Shown piece after piece: positions 11,532 through 22,944 of a stretch of DNA of 32,383 nucleotides. How positions within the stretch are numbered: the stretch's first letter is position 1; every line of letters begins with the position of its first letter. The DNA comes from Halothiobacillaceae bacterium (GTDB lineage Bacteria; Pseudomonadota; Gammaproteobacteria; Halothiobacillales; Halothiobacillaceae). Under the pieces are notes generated by a model, which searched no databases, was not told where the DNA came from, and was given only the letters and a program-made list of their open reading frames with translations. The stretch is taken from NCBI GenBank assembly GCA_016938615.1, contig JAFGUH010000178.1, positions 1-32,383 on the forward strand, written 5' to 3'. Both the position numbers and the translations under genes were made by a program.

Positions 11532-12152
11532 ATGCCCATCAGATTCCATCCTCCCCGCTCGACACGGTTGGCCGCTCTGCTGCTGGCACCGCTGGCACCG
11601 CTGTTCCTGCTCGGCATGGCCGCCCCGCCGGGCCAGGCGGAGGAGGACGCGCCCACGAAAGGCAAGGGCGCCGCACCCTTGATGGACGACCTGAGCGACG
11701 TCTCGCGTGACCTTGATGTGCTCCAGGCACGCCAGATCCCGATGTTGCTGTTCTTCCACGCGACCTACTGCGCCTACTGCCAAACCGTGGACGAGGAGTT
11801 CCTGCAAACCATGGCCGAGGACCCGGCCTACGCCGATCGGCTGATCATCCGTCGGGTGGAAATCGACTCACCCCGGCCAGAAATCCAGTGGCAAGGCACC
11901 TCTTACGCACCGGTCGAGTTCGCCCGGCTGCAAGGCGTCGAGCTGGTGCCGCAGGTGATGTTTTTCGCCCCGGACGGCAAACAGGTGGTCGACGAACTCA
12001 AGGGGCTGACCGTGCCCGATTTCTACCCGGCCTATCTCGATCAACGGCTTGCAGCGGCCGAGCGTTGTATCGACGAACCTACCCTGCCCGTCTGCACCGC
12101 CGACATCGACGAGCCGCGCCGCCAGCTGGCCGGCGACCGACCAACCGATTGA
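11532..12152 (+). CDS. Secreted thioredoxin-fold protein
   Basis: This 206-aa protein starts with a signal peptide (basic RFHPPRSTR, hydrophobic core about 13-30, likely cleavage near GQA/EE at 36). A thioredoxin fold follows, with the motif CAYC (C80, C83) after LLFFHAT and the cis-proline at P140 (ELVPQVMFF). Two further cysteines (C179, C188) lie near the C-terminus. Periplasmic proteins of this SoxW/DsbD-gamma-like type usually act as reductants of partner disulfides. A strong Shine-Dalgarno GGAGG lies at 11522-11526, 5 nt before the ATG. It stands upstream of the RiPP operon on the same strand, 148 bp before hvfA; a role in keeping the precursor cysteines reduced is only a guess. Confidence 0.82.
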   Translation: MPIRFHPPRSTRLAALLLAPLAPLFLLGMAAPPGQAEEDAPTKGKGAAPLMDDLSDVSRDLDVLQARQIPMLLFFHATYCAYCQTVDEEFLQTMAEDPAYADRLIIRRVEIDSPRPEIQWQGTSYAPVEFARLQGVELVPQVMFFAPDGKQVVDELKGLTVPDFYPAYLDQRLAAAERCIDEPTLPVCTADIDEPRRQLAGDRPTD

Positions 12153-12178
12153 ATCGGCTACCAAATCGCGGCGACACG

Positions 12179-12250
12179 CACTAGAGTTGACGCACACTAG
12201 TCTTATGGGCTATTCACTAGCGTGTAACGGATCGTTGCCGGATCTCGTTT
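12179..12250 (+). promoter_or_regulatory. Putative promoter/operator region of the RiPP operon
   Basis: Three copies of CACTAG lie at 12179-12184, 12195-12200 and 12215-12220. Between the first two is a TTGACG (12187-12192) that could act as a -35 box. Just downstream, GTAACG (12224-12229) is followed after exactly 16 nt by CGTT (12246-12249), a layout like ECF sigma factor promoters known for related DUF692 operons. Which element drives transcription is unproven. The hvfA ATG is at 12301. Confidence 0.4.
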
Positions 12251-12300
12251 ACTCGTTTTGCGGCCCCGACCGTGTCCACCCAACCAGAGGACCAGACGAC

Positions 12301-12537
12301 ATGAAAGCCAAATCCAAGACCCCCCTGACCAAGAAGCAGCTTCTGATCGGCTCCACCGCCCTGGCCACCGCTCTGGCCGGTTCCACCGCGATGGCCGCCG
12401 GCAACGGCAACCCCTTTGCCTCCGAGTCCACCCACGCGGGGACCTTCCAGACCGCGGAAATGGCCTGCGGCTCCGGCCAGTGCGGCAGCAGCATGGACGA
12501 CGACAAGGGCGAGGAAGAAGAGAAGGACGGCGCCTGA
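12301..12537 (+). CDS. hvfA: HvfA/bufferin-type RiPP precursor peptide
   Basis: A 78-residue secreted peptide. Residues 1-32 form a signal peptide (two lysine-rich patches, hydrophobic SGSTALATALAG-like core, cleavage likely after AMA/A). The mature part opens with GNGNPFA, a feature of HvfA-like precursors, and carries two Cys-Gly pentapeptide units, EMACG (53-57) and SGQCG (58-62), in the same five-residue spacing as the EGKCG repeats of Haemophilus HvfA. It ends in a very acidic tail (DDDKGEEEEKD). In the characterised family the DUF692/MNIO enzyme converts the EGKCG cysteines to oxazolone/thioamide groups that bind copper. The maturase and partner genes follow directly (hvfB, hvfC). The modification and metal are inferred from family and context; only two units is few for the group. 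Confidence 0.85.
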   Translation: MKAKSKTPLTKKQLLIGSTALATALAGSTAMAAGNGNPFASESTHAGTFQTAEMACGSGQCGSSMDDDKGEEEEKDGA

Positions 12538-12558
12538 GGCCGCTGACAACGTCGCCGG

Positions 12559-12648
12559 CCAGCCTGGGCTGGTGACAACGACGACGGTCGGCGACGACAA
12601 ACCGCCGCCGACCACCAGTATTCCCGTGCCCCGGCACTCGTGCCGGGG
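12559..12648 (+). promoter_or_regulatory. Three tandem hairpins between RiPP precursor and maturase
   Basis: Three perfect inverted repeats follow the hvfA stop: 12559-12564 with 12567-12572 (6 bp), 12586-12593 with 12606-12613 (8 bp), and 12629-12637 with 12640-12648 (9 bp, CCCCGGCAC and GTGCCGGGG). No T-run follows the last, so they probably act as a partial terminator or RNA-stability element, giving more precursor mRNA than enzyme mRNA. The hvfB ribosome-binding site GGGAGG is at 12662-12667. Confidence 0.55.
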
Positions 12649-12673
12649 GACTTCGCTTTCCGGGAGGCCTGCC

Positions 12674-13531
12674 ATGCGCCCCCAGTCCGCCAACCCCAAC
12701 ACGATCCACCACGTTCCCGTCGGCATCGGCCTGCGTCGCGGCCCGCTCATGCGCGAGATCGAGGAAACGCGTCCCGACATCGATTTTCTCGAGGTCGCCC
12801 CCGAGAACTGGCTGCGCTTCGGCGGGCCGGTCAAGGAACGCTTCAAGGCCCTGCTTGAGGACTACCCGCTCTACACCCACGGCCTGTCGCTTTCGATCGG
12901 CGGGCCGGCGGACCTCGACCTCGACTTCGTCGACGCCGTTGGCGAATTCCTCGATGAGTACCAACCGGCGCTCTACAGCGAGCACCTGTCGTTCTGCTCG
13001 GACAACGCGCACCTCTACGACCTAATGCCGATCCCCTTCACCGAGGAGGCGATCGACCACGTCGTCGCGCGCATCGACACGGTCCAAGAGCGCCTCGGCC
13101 GGCGGCTGGCACTGGAGAACGTCTCCTACTACTCGCCAGTCGAGTCCACCATGGACGAGCGGACGTTCATCCTCGAGATTCTCGAGCGCTCCGGCTGCGA
13201 CCTGCTGCTCGACGTGAACAACGTGTTCGTCAACAGCGTCAACCACGGCTACGATCCCTACGCCTTCATCGACGCGATGCCCGCCGAGCGGGTGCGCTAC
13301 CTGCACGTCGCCGGCCACCATCAAGTCGAGGAGGACCTGATCATCGACAGCCACGGCGCGCCGGTCAGCGCCCCGGTCTGGGACCTGCTCGAGCACACCT
13401 ATCGCCACGTCGGCCCGGTGCCGACGCTCCTGGAACGCGATTTCGACATCCCGCCGCTCGACGAGTTGATGGGAGAGGTCGCGCAGATCCGCCGCGCCGC
13501 CGAACGGGCGCTGGGCAGCAAGGCCGCATGA
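12674..13531 (+). CDS. hvfB: HvfB/BufB-family MNIO (DUF692) RiPP maturase
   Basis: This 285-aa enzyme belongs to the multinuclear non-haem iron-dependent oxidase family (DUF692, MbnB-like), a TIM-barrel oxygenase that modifies precursor cysteines. Likely metal ligands are in place: H69 (YTHGLSLS), E103/H104 (YSEHLSF), E148/N149 (LENVSYY), D180 with N183 and H191 (LLLDVNNVFVN, NHGYDP), H211 (YLHVAGHH), D225/H227 (IDSHG) and E254 (LLERDFDIP). Length fits the family (about 270-290). The ATG at 12674 has GGGAGG 6 nt upstream. The stop overlaps hvfC in an ATGA, so the enzyme and partner are made together, as in other operons where BufB/HvfB and BufC/HvfC form a complex. Family assignment is firm; the product is inferred. 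Confidence 0.95.
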   Translation: MRPQSANPNTIHHVPVGIGLRRGPLMREIEETRPDIDFLEVAPENWLRFGGPVKERFKALLEDYPLYTHGLSLSIGGPADLDLDFVDAVGEFLDEYQPALYSEHLSFCSDNAHLYDLMPIPFTEEAIDHVVARIDTVQERLGRRLALENVSYYSPVESTMDERTFILEILERSGCDLLLDVNNVFVNSVNHGYDPYAFIDAMPAERVRYLHVAGHHQVEEDLIIDSHGAPVSAPVWDLLEHTYRHVGPVPTLLERDFDIPPLDELMGEVAQIRRAAERALGSKAA

Positions 13532-14295
13532 TAGATGGGCAGGGCTTCAAGAAGACCCAGGAGGCGTTCACTCGGTACGTGCGCGATCCCGAGGGCAACC
13601 CGCCGCCCCCGGGCAGTGACCCCGAACGCATGGGCTGGTACGCGACGATCTTTTTCAACAACGTCGACACCACGTTAGGCAACGCCTTCCCGGCACTGAG
13701 CGCCGGCCTGGGCGGGGACGACTGGCAGACCCTCACCCGATCGTTCTTCCGCGATCATCCGGCCCACTCGCCGATCCTGCGTGATCTGCCGGCAGCGTTC
13801 CTCGATTTTCTGCAAAGCCGCCCGGAACTCGCCGATTGGCAGCGTGAGCTGGCCACCTACGAATTGGTCCGGTTCGAACTGATCGCCGAAGACGCCGACC
13901 CACCTCCCGCCGACCTCGACCCGGATGCCAACCTGCTAGCAGGCCGCCCGGTGGTCTCCTCGCTGGTCCGGCTAATGGTGACCGCCTATCCGGTCGATCG
14001 AATCGCCGCGAGTCTCGAGTCCGGCCACACCCCGTCGATAGGGGCAGTGGGCATGCACCACCTGGCCCTGCACCGCGACCGACAGGGGGCGCCATTCGCC
14101 CTCGACCTGTCGCCTGGCAGCGCACAACTCCTGCTCGCCCTGATCGAGGCCGACGGCCGCACCGGATACGAGACGGTGCACCACTTGGCGAGCGTCTTCG
14201 ACCACCCGCTCGACGACCTGCTGCGCTTCGCCGGCGAACAACTCGACCAATGGCGAGAACAGGGCCTGCTGCTCGGGGCACGCCCACCGGACTGA
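13528..14295 (+). CDS. hvfC: HvfC/BufC-family RiPP maturation partner (DUF2063)
   Basis: The 255-aa protein is the usual partner of DUF692 maturases. The N-terminal DUF2063 domain (about residues 1-100) is recognisable by FxxYVRDP, the [20 protein letters not shown] region and the [23 protein letters not shown] segment. The remaining C-terminal part is less conserved and ends in a helical region (about 195-245) resembling a winged-helix. Older annotation calls the family a putative DNA-binding domain; in characterised systems it binds the precursor leader and the MNIO enzyme. It starts inside the hvfB stop (ATGA). No DoxX-like hvfD follows; radC is next after 50 bp. Confidence 0.9.
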
Positions 14296-15400: not shown

Positions 15401-15769
15401 ATGACCCTCGCCATCGCCACCAACAACGCCTCCAAAGACAGGGCCATGGTGCTGGCCAAGGCCCTGTTCAACGCCGGACGCGGGCTCAGCCTGAGCCAGA
15501 CCCGAATCGGCCGGATCGTCGGCAAGAATCGCTCGACGATCTCCCGGTCCGGCATCGATCCGGAAAGCCAGAACGGCCAGCTGGCCCTGCTGCTCGTGCG
15601 CTGCTACCGCAGCCTGTATGCGCTGATGGACGGCGACGAGGAGCAGATGAAGCACTGGATGCATACGCCCAACCGGCACACCGGTGGCATCCCGGCAGAA
15701 CAGCTGCTCTCCGTCGCCGGCCTGGTGCATGTCTGTGACTACCTGGACGCGATTCGCGGCAAGGTCTGA
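15401..15769 (+). CDS. Xre/MbcA/ParS-type antitoxin
   Basis: The 122-aa protein has a helix-turn-helix-like N-terminal half (about residues 28-55: LSLSQTRIGRIVGKNRSTISR) and a C-terminal half typical of the Xre/MbcA/ParS toxin-binding domain (about 62-120: LLLVRCYRSLYALMDGDEEQMKHWMHTPNRHTGG...). The MHTPNRHTGGIP box corresponds to the partly conserved toxin-facing motif of the family. Such antitoxins neutralise RES toxins and repress their own operon. The toxin gene follows after 3 bp. Confidence is high because domain and partner agree. Confidence 0.9.
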   Translation: MTLAIATNNASKDRAMVLAKALFNAGRGLSLSQTRIGRIVGKNRSTISRSGIDPESQNGQLALLLVRCYRSLYALMDGDEEQMKHWMHTPNRHTGGIPAEQLLSVAGLVHVCDYLDAIRGKV

Positions 15770-15772
15770 CCG

Positions 15773-16525
15773 GTGCGGAATCTGTGGGAGGAATGCGGAC
15801 TCGAAGGGCACATCGAGCCCGTCGACGGCACGCTGACGCGCATCGTCGAGAGCCAGGAGCAGGTGGCAACGACAGGCCTGGTGGATACCCTCGAGGAACA
15901 GGGCCTGCTCGAGGACATGCTGGATACGGCGAAGCCGCCGCCACGCCTCGGCAGCGAGGGGCTGCACTACCTGTTGATGACGCCGTTCCGCTACCCGCCG
16001 CTGCGACACGGCTCGCGCTTCGGGCGCCGATACGAGCCATCCATTCTCTACGGGTCCCTGTCGGCCGAAGCCGCCCTGGCGGAAGCCGCCTACTACCGGC
16101 TGGTCTTCCGCGCCGGCATGGAGACACCGCCCGCCTCACCGATCCGCAGCCGCCACACCCTGTTCCGGGCGAACTACCAGACCGATCGAGGGCTGCGGCT
16201 GCACCAGCCACCCTGCAGCGAGAAGCGCTCGATCCTGACCGACCCAGCCGATTACGCCGCCACCCAGGCGCTGGGCAGTGCCATGCGCGACGCGGGCGTG
16301 CTGGCGTTCGAGTTTCACTCCGCCCGCGACCCGCAGGGCGGCATCAATGTCGGCCTGTTCGAACCCACGGCACTGGCCTCCCGCGCCCCAACCGGGCAGG
16401 AGCAATGGTTATGCGAGGTGACCGGCGATCAGGTGACGTTCCTGCACCCCACCAGCCGTCGGATCGAGCGATTTCCCGCCACCACATTCCATGTCGACGG
16501 CCAGCTGCCGCAACCCGCTGTCTGA
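15773..16525 (+). CDS. RES-domain toxin
   Basis: The 250-aa protein starts with GTG 3 bp after the antitoxin stop. The RES fold is recognised by FRYPPLRHGSRFGRRYEPSI with conserved arginines (about 72-86), YGSLSAEAALAEAAYYRL (Y93 and E104, active-site candidates) and a later NVGLFEPTALAS segment with a serine. RES toxins degrade NAD+ (NAD phosphorylase or glycohydrolase activity) and arrest growth unless bound by the Xre-type antitoxin. Here about 60 extra N-terminal residues precede the RES region. The pair lies between REP elements (15013-15300 and 16604-16627), consistent with a mobile or replaceable module. Confidence 0.88.
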   Translation: MRNLWEECGLEGHIEPVDGTLTRIVESQEQVATTGLVDTLEEQGLLEDMLDTAKPPPRLGSEGLHYLLMTPFRYPPLRHGSRFGRRYEPSILYGSLSAEAALAEAAYYRLVFRAGMETPPASPIRSRHTLFRANYQTDRGLRLHQPPCSEKRSILTDPADYAATQALGSAMRDAGVLAFEFHSARDPQGGINVGLFEPTALASRAPTGQEQWLCEVTGDQVTFLHPTSRRIERFPATTFHVDGQLPQPAV

Positions 16526-21801: not shown

Positions 21802-22944
21802 GTGCAAAACCCGTCGCCCACCTCTCGCTTCGCCAACCCCGCTCGGGCCGACACCGCCCGGGACAACGCGCTGCTGCCGGCCGCTCTGCCGGCATTCTGC
21901 ACCGCGCGAGTAATCCTGATCACCCTCGCGCTCGGTGTGGCGCTCTCCCTGCTTCTCTCGCTGGTGCCCGGGCTGGGCGCTGAGCGCTGGAGCCGGTTCG
22001 GCACGACGCTCTGGCTGGTCACCTGGATCGCGCTGGTGACGGTGGCCCTGCTCTGCGCGGCGCGAGCGTGGCTGCAACGCCTGCCGCTGGCAGCCCTCTT
22101 GACCACCGTGGTGCTCCTGCTGCTCGCAGTGACGGCCATCAGCAGTGTCGTGGCTTTCTCGGCCCTGCTCTCTGTAGGCTGGGAGTCTAACGAGACGGCG
22201 GCGCGATTCGTGCTGCACAACCTCGCCATCGCGTTGGTGGTCGGCTTGCTCGGCATCTGGGTGTTCTCGCTGCATCTGGCCAACGCCCGGCAGATCAACG
22301 CCGTGGCGCAGGCCGAGTTGTCCGCATTGCATGCACGCATCCGGCCGCACTTTTTGTTCAACAGCCTCAACACGGTGGCCGAGCTGGTCCACGAACGCCC
22401 GGAGGCAGCCGAACAGGCCGTGCTCGACCTCGCGCGCGTGTTCCGTGCGGCGCTAGCCGCCGACGAGCAGGTGACGCTGGCCGAGGAAATCGAACTGGCG
22501 CGGCGCTATCTCGAGCTCGAGCAGTGGCGCCTGGGCGAGCGACTGGTGGTCGACTGGCAACTCCCCGAGAAGCTGCCCGAGTTGCACCTCCCGGTGCTGA
22601 CCCTGCAACCGTTGGTGGAGAACGCCGTGCGTCACAGCGTGGAACGTCAACAGAACGTCGGCCCCATCCGGATCGAGTGCCAACCCGGGCGGCACTCGGT
22701 CGGCCTGGTGATCGAGAACGACCGTATTCCGGGCGAGGCGCGCCACGGCAACGGCGTGGCGCTGGCGAACATCGCCGATCGGCTCGCGCTGGTGTTCGGC
22801 GAGTCGGCCACGCTACGGGCCGGGCCAGTGGACGGACGTTTCCGGGTCAAGCTGGTGATCCCACGCCCGACGCCCTCAGCCCGGGAAGAATCGGCCCGGA
22901 AGGAATCGGCCCAGGAGCAATCGCCCCGGGAGGAATCGACCTGA
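21802..22944 (+). CDS. algZ: AlgZ/LytS-type sensor histidine kinase
   Basis: The 380-aa membrane kinase has four N-terminal hydrophobic segments (about 33-55, 68-88, 95-120 and 138-158), then a His_kinase domain with the phosphorylation site H183 in RPHFLFNSLN and an ATPase domain with the N-box LQPLVENAVRHSVE and a G-box-like NGVALANIADRL. This is the AlgZ/FimS/LytS type, which lacks a classical HisKA dimerisation domain. The start is GTG with AAAGGAG 8 nt upstream; the nearby ATG at 21782 is out of frame. The C-terminus has four 15-bp tandem repeats (see separate entry). It shares one base with the regulator (TGATG). Symbol is by homology and synteny. Confidence 0.85.
   Translation: MQNPSPTSRFANPARADTARDNALLPAALPAFCTARVILITLALGVALSLLLSLVPGLGAERWSRFGTTLWLVTWIALVTVALLCAARAWLQRLPLAALLTTVVLLLLAVTAISSVVAFSALLSVGWESNETAARFVLHNLAIALVVGLLGIWVFSLHLANARQINAVAQAELSALHARIRPHFLFNSLNTVAELVHERPEAAEQAVLDLARVFRAALAADEQVTLAEEIELARRYLELEQWRLGERLVVDWQLPEKLPELHLPVLTLQPLVENAVRHSVERQQNVGPIRIECQPGRHSVGLVIENDRIPGEARHGNGVALANIADRLALVFGESATLRAGPVDGRFRVKLVIPRPTPSAREESARKESAQEQSPREEST
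22876..22935 (+). repeat. Four tandem 15-bp repeats at the 3' end of algZ
   Basis: Four near-identical 15-mers (22876-22890, 22891-22905, 22906-22920, 22921-22935), each like TCGGCCCGGAAGGAA, encode four S-A/P-R/Q-E/K-E/Q pentapeptides in the acidic/basic tail. Being in multiples of three, copy number changes would alter tail length without frameshift. Confidence 0.85.

Follow-up and report, generated by a model that had tools for sequence, protein, structure and literature searches.

A three-gene MNIO-PME1 operon of a probable Guyparkeria genome encodes an HvfA homologue with a single cysteine pair

A window of 32,383 nucleotides from a Halothiobacillaceae bacterium (the whole stretch analyzed; contig JAFGUH010000178.1 of assembly GCA_016938615.1) carries three genes, hvfA (12301 to 12537), hvfB (12674 to 13531), and hvfC (13528 to 14295), which lie in one direction on the forward strand within 12301 to 14295, with a 4-bp overlap between hvfB and hvfC. 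By analogy with characterized systems, this is probably a captophorin-type operon for a ribosomally synthesized and posttranslationally modified peptide (RiPP), in which a multinuclear iron oxidase (MNIO) and its PME1 partner would convert both cysteines of a single-cassette precursor to 5-thiooxazoles, giving an exported Cu(I)-chelating peptide. Sequence comparison indicates that the distinguishing trait of the group is the precursor, which has a single Cys pair and no EGKCG repeats, a trait given no emphasis in an earlier, sequence-only reading. That reading had proposed a three-gene operon of the HvfA-HvfB-HvfC type with a DUF2063 partner; the genes stand where it placed them, in the same order at all 10 same-genus loci, and the type assignment is borne out for HvfB and HvfC by curated NCBIfam models and for HvfA by profile homology.

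The source genome (2.40 Mb, 267 contigs, 94.7% complete) contains one copy of HvfB. We infer that it belongs to Guyparkeria and that the other large genus of the family, the sister genus (g4), is Halothiobacillus; the locus of a Halothiobacillus neapolitanus metagenome-assembled genome (L058) groups among the g4 rows in the HvfB tree. The family set comprised 27 genomes, including 11 of Guyparkeria with the source genome, and same-genus counts refer to the 10 loci with hvfB (no hvfB match was found in the remaining same-genus genome, G004, which is 64% complete). Wider comparisons used 80 named loci, the best of a longer list fetched by HvfB similarity.

Both enzymes are assigned by Pfam and curated NCBIfam models. 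The 285-residue HvfB matches PF05114 (DUF692; E = 1.1e-104) and passes the NCBIfam HvfB model NF003818 (390.1 bits; cut-off, 360), and the solved structure nearest to it in sequence is 3BWW (E = 2.8e-68). The BufB model scored below its cut-off on the same protein (289.1 bits; cut-off, 310), as did the ApyH, ChrH, and MbnB models, the last of which, methanobactin TIGR04159, reached 63.5 bits against a cut-off of 325. The 255-residue HvfC matches PF09836 (DUF2063; E = 6.8e-22) and PF22106, passes the NCBIfam HvfC model NF050145 (166.7 bits; cut-off, 142), and matches the sequence of the solved structure 3DEE (E = 2.8e-6). Sixteen conserved-motif residues, including the Arg-Arg and Asp-Phe pairs and N, D, and H motifs, were checked across the 45 HvfB-type rows of a set of 49, leaving out L026 (contig end) and L028, L029, and L030 (more distant MNIOs); 15 were invariant in 45/45 rows, and R21 was Arg in 44/45. 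The earlier claim that all expected ligands are present was assessed at this level of motif conservation. The N, D, and H motifs probably correspond to the site-3 residues N175, D242, and H244 of Haemophilus influenzae HvfB (PMC13419390), equated by motif and not by numbering. The Arg-Arg and Asp-Phe pairs are reported to be tied to substrate choice and catalysis and to mark the Lys-Cys group of enzymes (PMC12668002). In 2/49 rows of the earlier MNIO row set, Asp replaces the Phe of the Asp-Phe pair, and Asp at this position has been described for the Cys-Lys group (PMC12668002).

HvfA, of 78 residues, keeps the HvfA layout of signal peptide, NPF leader, and Cys-Gly core but contains only two cysteines (EMACG-SGQCG). 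By eye, a Lys-rich N terminus, a hydrophobic stretch, and a cleavage-like site (AMA|A) after residue 32 delimit a putative signal peptide (residues 1 to 32; 12301 to 12396, forward strand), followed by a leader with the NPF motif (residues 33 to 52), the core EMACGSGQCGSS (residues 53 to 64), and an acidic tail. The core cysteines are Cys56 (12466 to 12468) and Cys61 (12481 to 12483). A family hidden Markov model search, which the sequence-only reading had advised, did not place the protein: only two NCBIfam models responded (E = 0.08 to 0.1, far under their cut-offs), and no Pfam family matched. Two cysteines are present in 10/10 same-genus precursors, with the core AEMACG(A/S)G(Q/K)CGS, and both cysteines and both following glycines are invariant in all 15 two-Cys precursors of Guyparkeria and g4. 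The ratio of nonsynonymous to synonymous polymorphism (pN/pS) across the 10 same-genus hvfA genes was 0.27 overall, 0.18 in the signal peptide, 0.11 in the leader plus core, and 0.62 in the acidic tail. Because it stands before hvfB in 10/10 same-genus loci and is under this degree of constraint overall and in the leader plus core, hvfA is, on comparative grounds, a real gene. No other match to HvfA, and thus no second precursor gene, was found in the genome at E values of up to 1.

The link to known precursors comes from a profile of the 15 two-Cys precursors searched over 274 genomes of the class. It matched 26 genomes, comprising 3 of Guyparkeria and 23 others, and in those 23 it found 24 precursors which, judged by sequence alone, have 5 to 15 cysteines in EGKCG-like motifs (E = 3.4e-8 to 5.6e-4 per genome). 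Some of their cores are nearly the same as those of Guyparkeria, as in L188 (AEMTCGEGKCGGM) and L071 (EMVCGEGKCGG). Since the two-Cys profile finds EGKCG-like precursors, HvfA is a homologue and not a chance small open reading frame (ORF); more exactly, the profile matches indicate that the Guyparkeria precursor is a divergent homologue of HvfA without the repeat that names the Buf_EGKCG/oxazolin group.

The two-Cys form is uncommon among relatives. A recognizable xCG precursor was found in 56/80 named loci (in the other 24, a simple ORF picker returned none or an unrelated ORF), and these precursors have two cysteines in 5 loci (L053 to L057, all same-genus), three in 1 (L058), four in 2 (L067 and L071), and five or more in 48. 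In the HvfB tree, in which the bootstrap is not yet settled, the 15 two-Cys rows cluster (support, 92/97) and adjoin repeat rows, and the 19 Guyparkeria, g4, and L058 rows form one group (100/100) separate from the other 26. The MNIO of G014 (L028), which also belongs to the family, is more distant (47% identity) and was excluded from the tree. Within g4, L016 to L018 have four cysteines and L058 has three, in SCGANMKK-like units and not EGKCG; precursors built of three or four such units are thus another unusual form, found in the sister genus. Separately, four Methylophaga loci (L070, L078, L091, and L094) have, just 5' of hvfB, related-looking proteins of 247 to 250 residues (128 in L094) with a CGC motif; they came from the ORF picker (limit, 250 residues) where an HvfA was expected and may be a neighbor or another substrate.

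Recognition, modification, ring identity, export, copper binding, and copper protection can be predicted from relatives. HvfA would be made with a Sec signal peptide and the NPF leader, and HvfC would bind its N-terminal part and support an active mixed-valent diiron HvfB (H. influenzae HvfB needs HvfC to reach its mixed-valent state; PMC13419390). HvfB would then take four electrons from each of Cys56 and Cys61, forming two 5-thiooxazoles with a loss of about 8 Da, and export would carry the modified peptide into the periplasm, in which its two rings would chelate Cu(I), in the simplest case one ion per peptide. EMACG-SGQCG reads as one two-site cassette, and two thiooxazoles and, most simply, one Cu(I) are therefore expected; the most likely product would be a periplasmic peptide with two 5-thiooxazoles and one Cu(I). 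In MNIO-PME1 systems, Cys is converted to 5-thiooxazole with four hydrogens lost each, which is the modification in all characterized cases, and the products generally bind copper (PMC12668002); the oxazolone/thioamide chemistry first put forward for HvfA has since been revised to 5-thiooxazole (PMC12668002). FonBC modified a two-repeat substrate and not a one-repeat substrate; the residue before Cys could be Ala, Arg, or Thr, whereas at position five only Ala was accepted besides the natural Gly (PMC12668002). A two-Cys MmrA cassette lost eight hydrogens, and the 12-residue cassette product bound Cu(I) but not appreciably Fe(III), Ni, Zn, or Mn (PMC12538549).

Several observations weigh against this proposal. 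The EGKCG repeat is absent from 10/10 same-genus precursors, and we found no variant with Gln before Cys among those listed for FonBC in PMC12668002. The two cysteines are separated by four residues (CxxxxC) in 10/10 Guyparkeria precursors but by five (C-x5-C) in the g4 precursors of L011 to L015 (5/5), and members of the group therefore do not all share the five-residue register. The two-Cys profile missed at least 5 genomes with KCG or SCG repeat precursors (G027, G030, G033, G035, and G036). No copper-responsive promoter was identified upstream of hvfA. In Microbulbifer, mmr proteins went undetected in the proteome whether or not copper was added. The protection of Escherichia coli was slight and not robust, and the authors are hesitant to assign a role in copper protection (PMC12538549).

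We consider it unlikely, though less so than the other alternatives, that HvfBC modifies only one Cys or installs another oxidation and that the product has a different role (another metal, redox, or sulfur stress). Several altered 5-mer substrates of FonBC received a single modification only (PMC12668002), the same-genus precursors lack Lys before Cys except in L005 (AGKCG), and a thioredoxin-like gene stands upstream in 10/10 same-genus loci; on the other hand, the invariance of both cysteines and their glycines in 15/15 precursors and the uniform 5-thiooxazole outcome of characterized MNIO-PME1 cases argue for modification of the pair. That the Cys pair stays unmodified, as a disulfide or plain thiol metal site, with hvfBC acting on another target, seems very improbable: the precursor is indeed unlike the repeat type and has no curated family match, but the genome yields no other precursor match at E values of up to 1, the gene order is kept in 10/10 same-genus loci, and profile homology ties the precursor to the repeat type. 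A decaying or silent remnant that has lost repeats and regulators and retains little function would fit a Cys count lower than in the remaining 51 of the 56 named loci that gave a recognizable precursor, the lack of a sigma/RskA-like pair in Guyparkeria, and the undetected mmr proteins, but is scarcely credible given the leader-plus-core constraint and an hvfB that is 85 to 95% identical and free of stops in the nine same-genus relatives carrying it. The preferred explanation remains two 5-thiooxazoles on an exported copper-binding peptide.

The sequence-only reading had also noted that a DoxX-like hvfD and a local extracytoplasmic function (ECF) sigma/anti-sigma pair are missing, and from this it suggested a minimal version and possible new subgroup. 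Both absences are real: no DoxX was found in the source genome (94.7% complete) or in any of the 11 Guyparkeria genomes, and no ECF pair adjoins the operon, a SigF-NrsF pair sitting elsewhere in the genome. DoxX was found in 2/27 family genomes, in G018 near the only, partial, MNIO match of that genome and in G023 close to an additional MNIO (42% identity) and not to the hvf copy. A phmmer search with the DoxX proteins of L037 and L038 gave matches in 35/80 named loci; among the 75 loci with 2 kb or more of downstream sequence, 33 had DoxX and 42 did not (five of the 42 same-genus); the DoxX of L019 surfaced only on iteration, and the DoxX counts may therefore be low. These absences do not by themselves support a new subgroup, because 42/75 loci lack DoxX and because the published fon operon of Fontimonas consists of precursor, MNIO, and PME1 only (PMC12668002) and the mmr operon of Microbulbifer of mmrABC, with flanking ORFs described as unrelated (PMC12538549).

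Control of hvfA in trans by the SigF-NrsF pair was considered and rejected. The pair lies on contig C6 (L032, G000:C6, 899 to 3661), a SigF-type ECF sigma factor with NrsF beside divergent cytochrome b561 and molybdopterin oxidoreductase (Oxidored_molyb) genes, and NrsF is present in 14/27 family genomes. Exact matches to the reported SigF site, GTAACC-N16-CGAA (PMC3511200), occur in 12/14 NrsF loci, and in the source genome they occur on both sides (two sites); on the sigF side, the site runs into the ATG listed as the start codon, and sigF therefore probably begins farther downstream. The hvfA upstream region has no exact site; it contains only a sequence with three mismatches (TGTAACG-N16-CGTT, at -78), which occurs in 1/18 upstream regions, that of the window itself. 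Allowing at most one mismatch, the genome scan gave 90 matches versus 56 for a reversed control, with one site listed on the contig of the window, at 21997 to 22022, far from hvfA. A simple scan of the hvfA upstream region found no sigma-70 promoter. Two further features of this region (about 12160 to 12300 and its equivalents in L002 to L010) were seen by eye in most same-genus relatives and are weakened in the window: a conserved block TAACAAATC..CAG..CTCTGG and, ahead of the ribosome-binding site, an ACGCGG/CCGCGT-like hairpin.

In g4, ECF sigma and anti-sigma genes do adjoin hvf, divergently in G015, G019, and G021 and codirectionally just upstream in G022. The G015 pair has Sigma70_r2 and r4 domains and an RskA_C domain (34.2 bits; cut-off, 29.4), and at L034 (5651 to 7121, reverse strand, upstream of hvfA) such an ECF sigma with an RskA_C-domain anti-sigma beside an MNIO operon is not of the NrsF kind described in the MNIO literature cited here. 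The G015 anti-sigma has matches in 7/27 family genomes and the sigma in 6/27 (E up to 1e-15), the counts for G040 and G041 being presence in the genome regardless of hvf adjacency; G024 has an anti-sigma match with an internal stop and no sigma match, and neither protein has a match in any Guyparkeria genome (0/11). A site G(T/C)A(A/T)C(C/T)-N16-CG(T/A)A, in practice (T)GCA(A/T)C(C/T)-N16-CGTA, occurs in 6/8 g4 hvfA upstream regions; with eight other spacers (12 to 20) it occurred in 1/8 once and in 0/8 seven times, and in Guyparkeria in 0/10 at every spacer. The motif was first picked by eye from these same sequences, and the counts are therefore a lead and fall short of a test. In G017 (L014) the motif is present, inside an inverted repeat, but the sigma has no match; G013 and G023 have neither. 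In L016 to L018, TGCA(A/T)CC-N16-CGTA sites are paired, the second copy being directed at the divergent sigma gene. These patterns are most simply explained if the ECF/RskA-like switch was lost from Guyparkeria and two g4 genomes, or had never been present in them. A broader and more tentative proposal is that Guyparkeria and part of the sister genus make a natural single-cassette captophorin, with a mature peptide of ~46 residues, exactly two thiooxazoles, and one discrete Cu(I) site, unlike the multisite EGKCG peptides, and that in the sister genus a dedicated ECF sigma/RskA-like pair controls the operon through a TGCA(A/T)C(C/T)-N16-CGTA promoter, the switch being lost in Guyparkeria; this is possible, but we would not favor it as a whole.

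The hvfA-hvfB gap may fold into three stem-loops on the forward strand, at 12551 to 12576, 12586 to 12613, and 12629 to 12648, the third being a near-perfect G+C-rich inverted repeat with no T run behind it. The fold of the whole gap in the window had a z score of -3.76 (100 shuffles), and gaps were more stable than shuffles in 10/10 Guyparkeria loci (z = -1.64 to -4.96) and in 6/8 g4 loci but not in the other 2; gap sequences ended at the start of the hvfB match, and a few include some first hvfB codons. In L012 and L013, by eye, a T run comes immediately after a stem, like an intrinsic terminator. No known RNA element was found in the window with Rfam. The stem-loops could favor precursor over enzyme yield; covariation is weak (term, +0.18; two-sided change in 7/32 pairs among 9 sequences, with L010 left out), and an RNA role is therefore only a suggestion.

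The thioredoxin-like gene (11535 to 12152, forward strand) encodes a signal-like N terminus and a CAYC motif (PF13899; E = 3e-14). It lies immediately 5' of hvfA in the window and occurs upstream of hvfA in all same-genus loci and in the g4 loci L011 and L015, and this synteny makes it a conserved neighbor and candidate operon member. Divergent hemC, the thioredoxin-like gene, and hvfABC occur together in 10/10 same-genus loci, and radC comes next after hvfABC in 9/10 short same-genus loci; for L004, the one remaining, it is seen in L053, a longer locus from the same contig. L011 and L015 have the same gene set. Just past radC in the window (15401 to 16525, forward strand), an antitoxin gene of the Xre/MbcA/ParS type and the RES-domain gene after it form a RES/Xre-type toxin-antitoxin pair.

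The operon type is thus already known, and what is new is the stripped-down single-Cys-pair precursor of this genus. The H. influenzae hvf (oxazolin) system shares the precursor, HvfB, and HvfC families and a secreted Cys-Gly precursor, but the H. influenzae peptide contains AEGKCGEGKCG three times and carries six thiooxazoles (PMC13419390), whereas here there are two cysteines, no EGKCG, and no DoxX. The fonABC operon of Fontimonas thermophila likewise has three genes only, a Lys-Cys-group MNIO with the Arg-Arg and Asp-Phe pairs, and a PME1 partner, but its product, fontiphorin, bears seven thiooxazoles (PMC12668002). Microbulbifer mmrABC (bulbicupramide) is also of three genes, and in this system a single two-Cys cassette was modified on both cysteines and the product bound Cu(I); that cassette was a cut-down construct, however, and natural MmrA has five to eight cysteines in EGKCG units (PMC12538549). 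Bufferins and the "CxxxxC" precursor group share a signal-peptide precursor, an MNIO, and a DUF2063 partner (PMC12452194), but Buf1 has a DUF2282 domain with four cysteines and Buf2 has 6 or 12 cysteines, whereas HvfA has no DUF2282 match and two cysteines. The CxxxxC group of Antoine et al. (PMC12452194) was compared by spacing only, which Guyparkeria shares and the two-Cys g4 precursors do not. The same paper reports (Table S2) that signal-peptide ORFs assigned to no class and containing 1 to 18 cysteines precede MNIO genes in hundreds of cases, and a two-Cys precursor may therefore already be listed there. In the literature searched, mostly outside subscription journals, we found nothing pairing DUF692 with Guyparkeria, Halothiobacillus, or RskA and nothing joining Guyparkeria, RiPPs, and copper.

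Roughly half of the reference genomes of Pseudomonadota are reported to carry MNIO-PME1 operons, and the EGKCG products studied are multisite, with fontiphorin aggregating with copper in a way that blurs stoichiometry (PMC12668002). The Guyparkeria Cys pair is the size of the smallest substrate accepted by FonBC in vitro, and a natural precursor with one Cys pair would make stoichiometry, structure, and mutants cleaner to study. In relatives, the ECF/RskA-like pair next to hvf would offer a concrete handle on the inducing signal.

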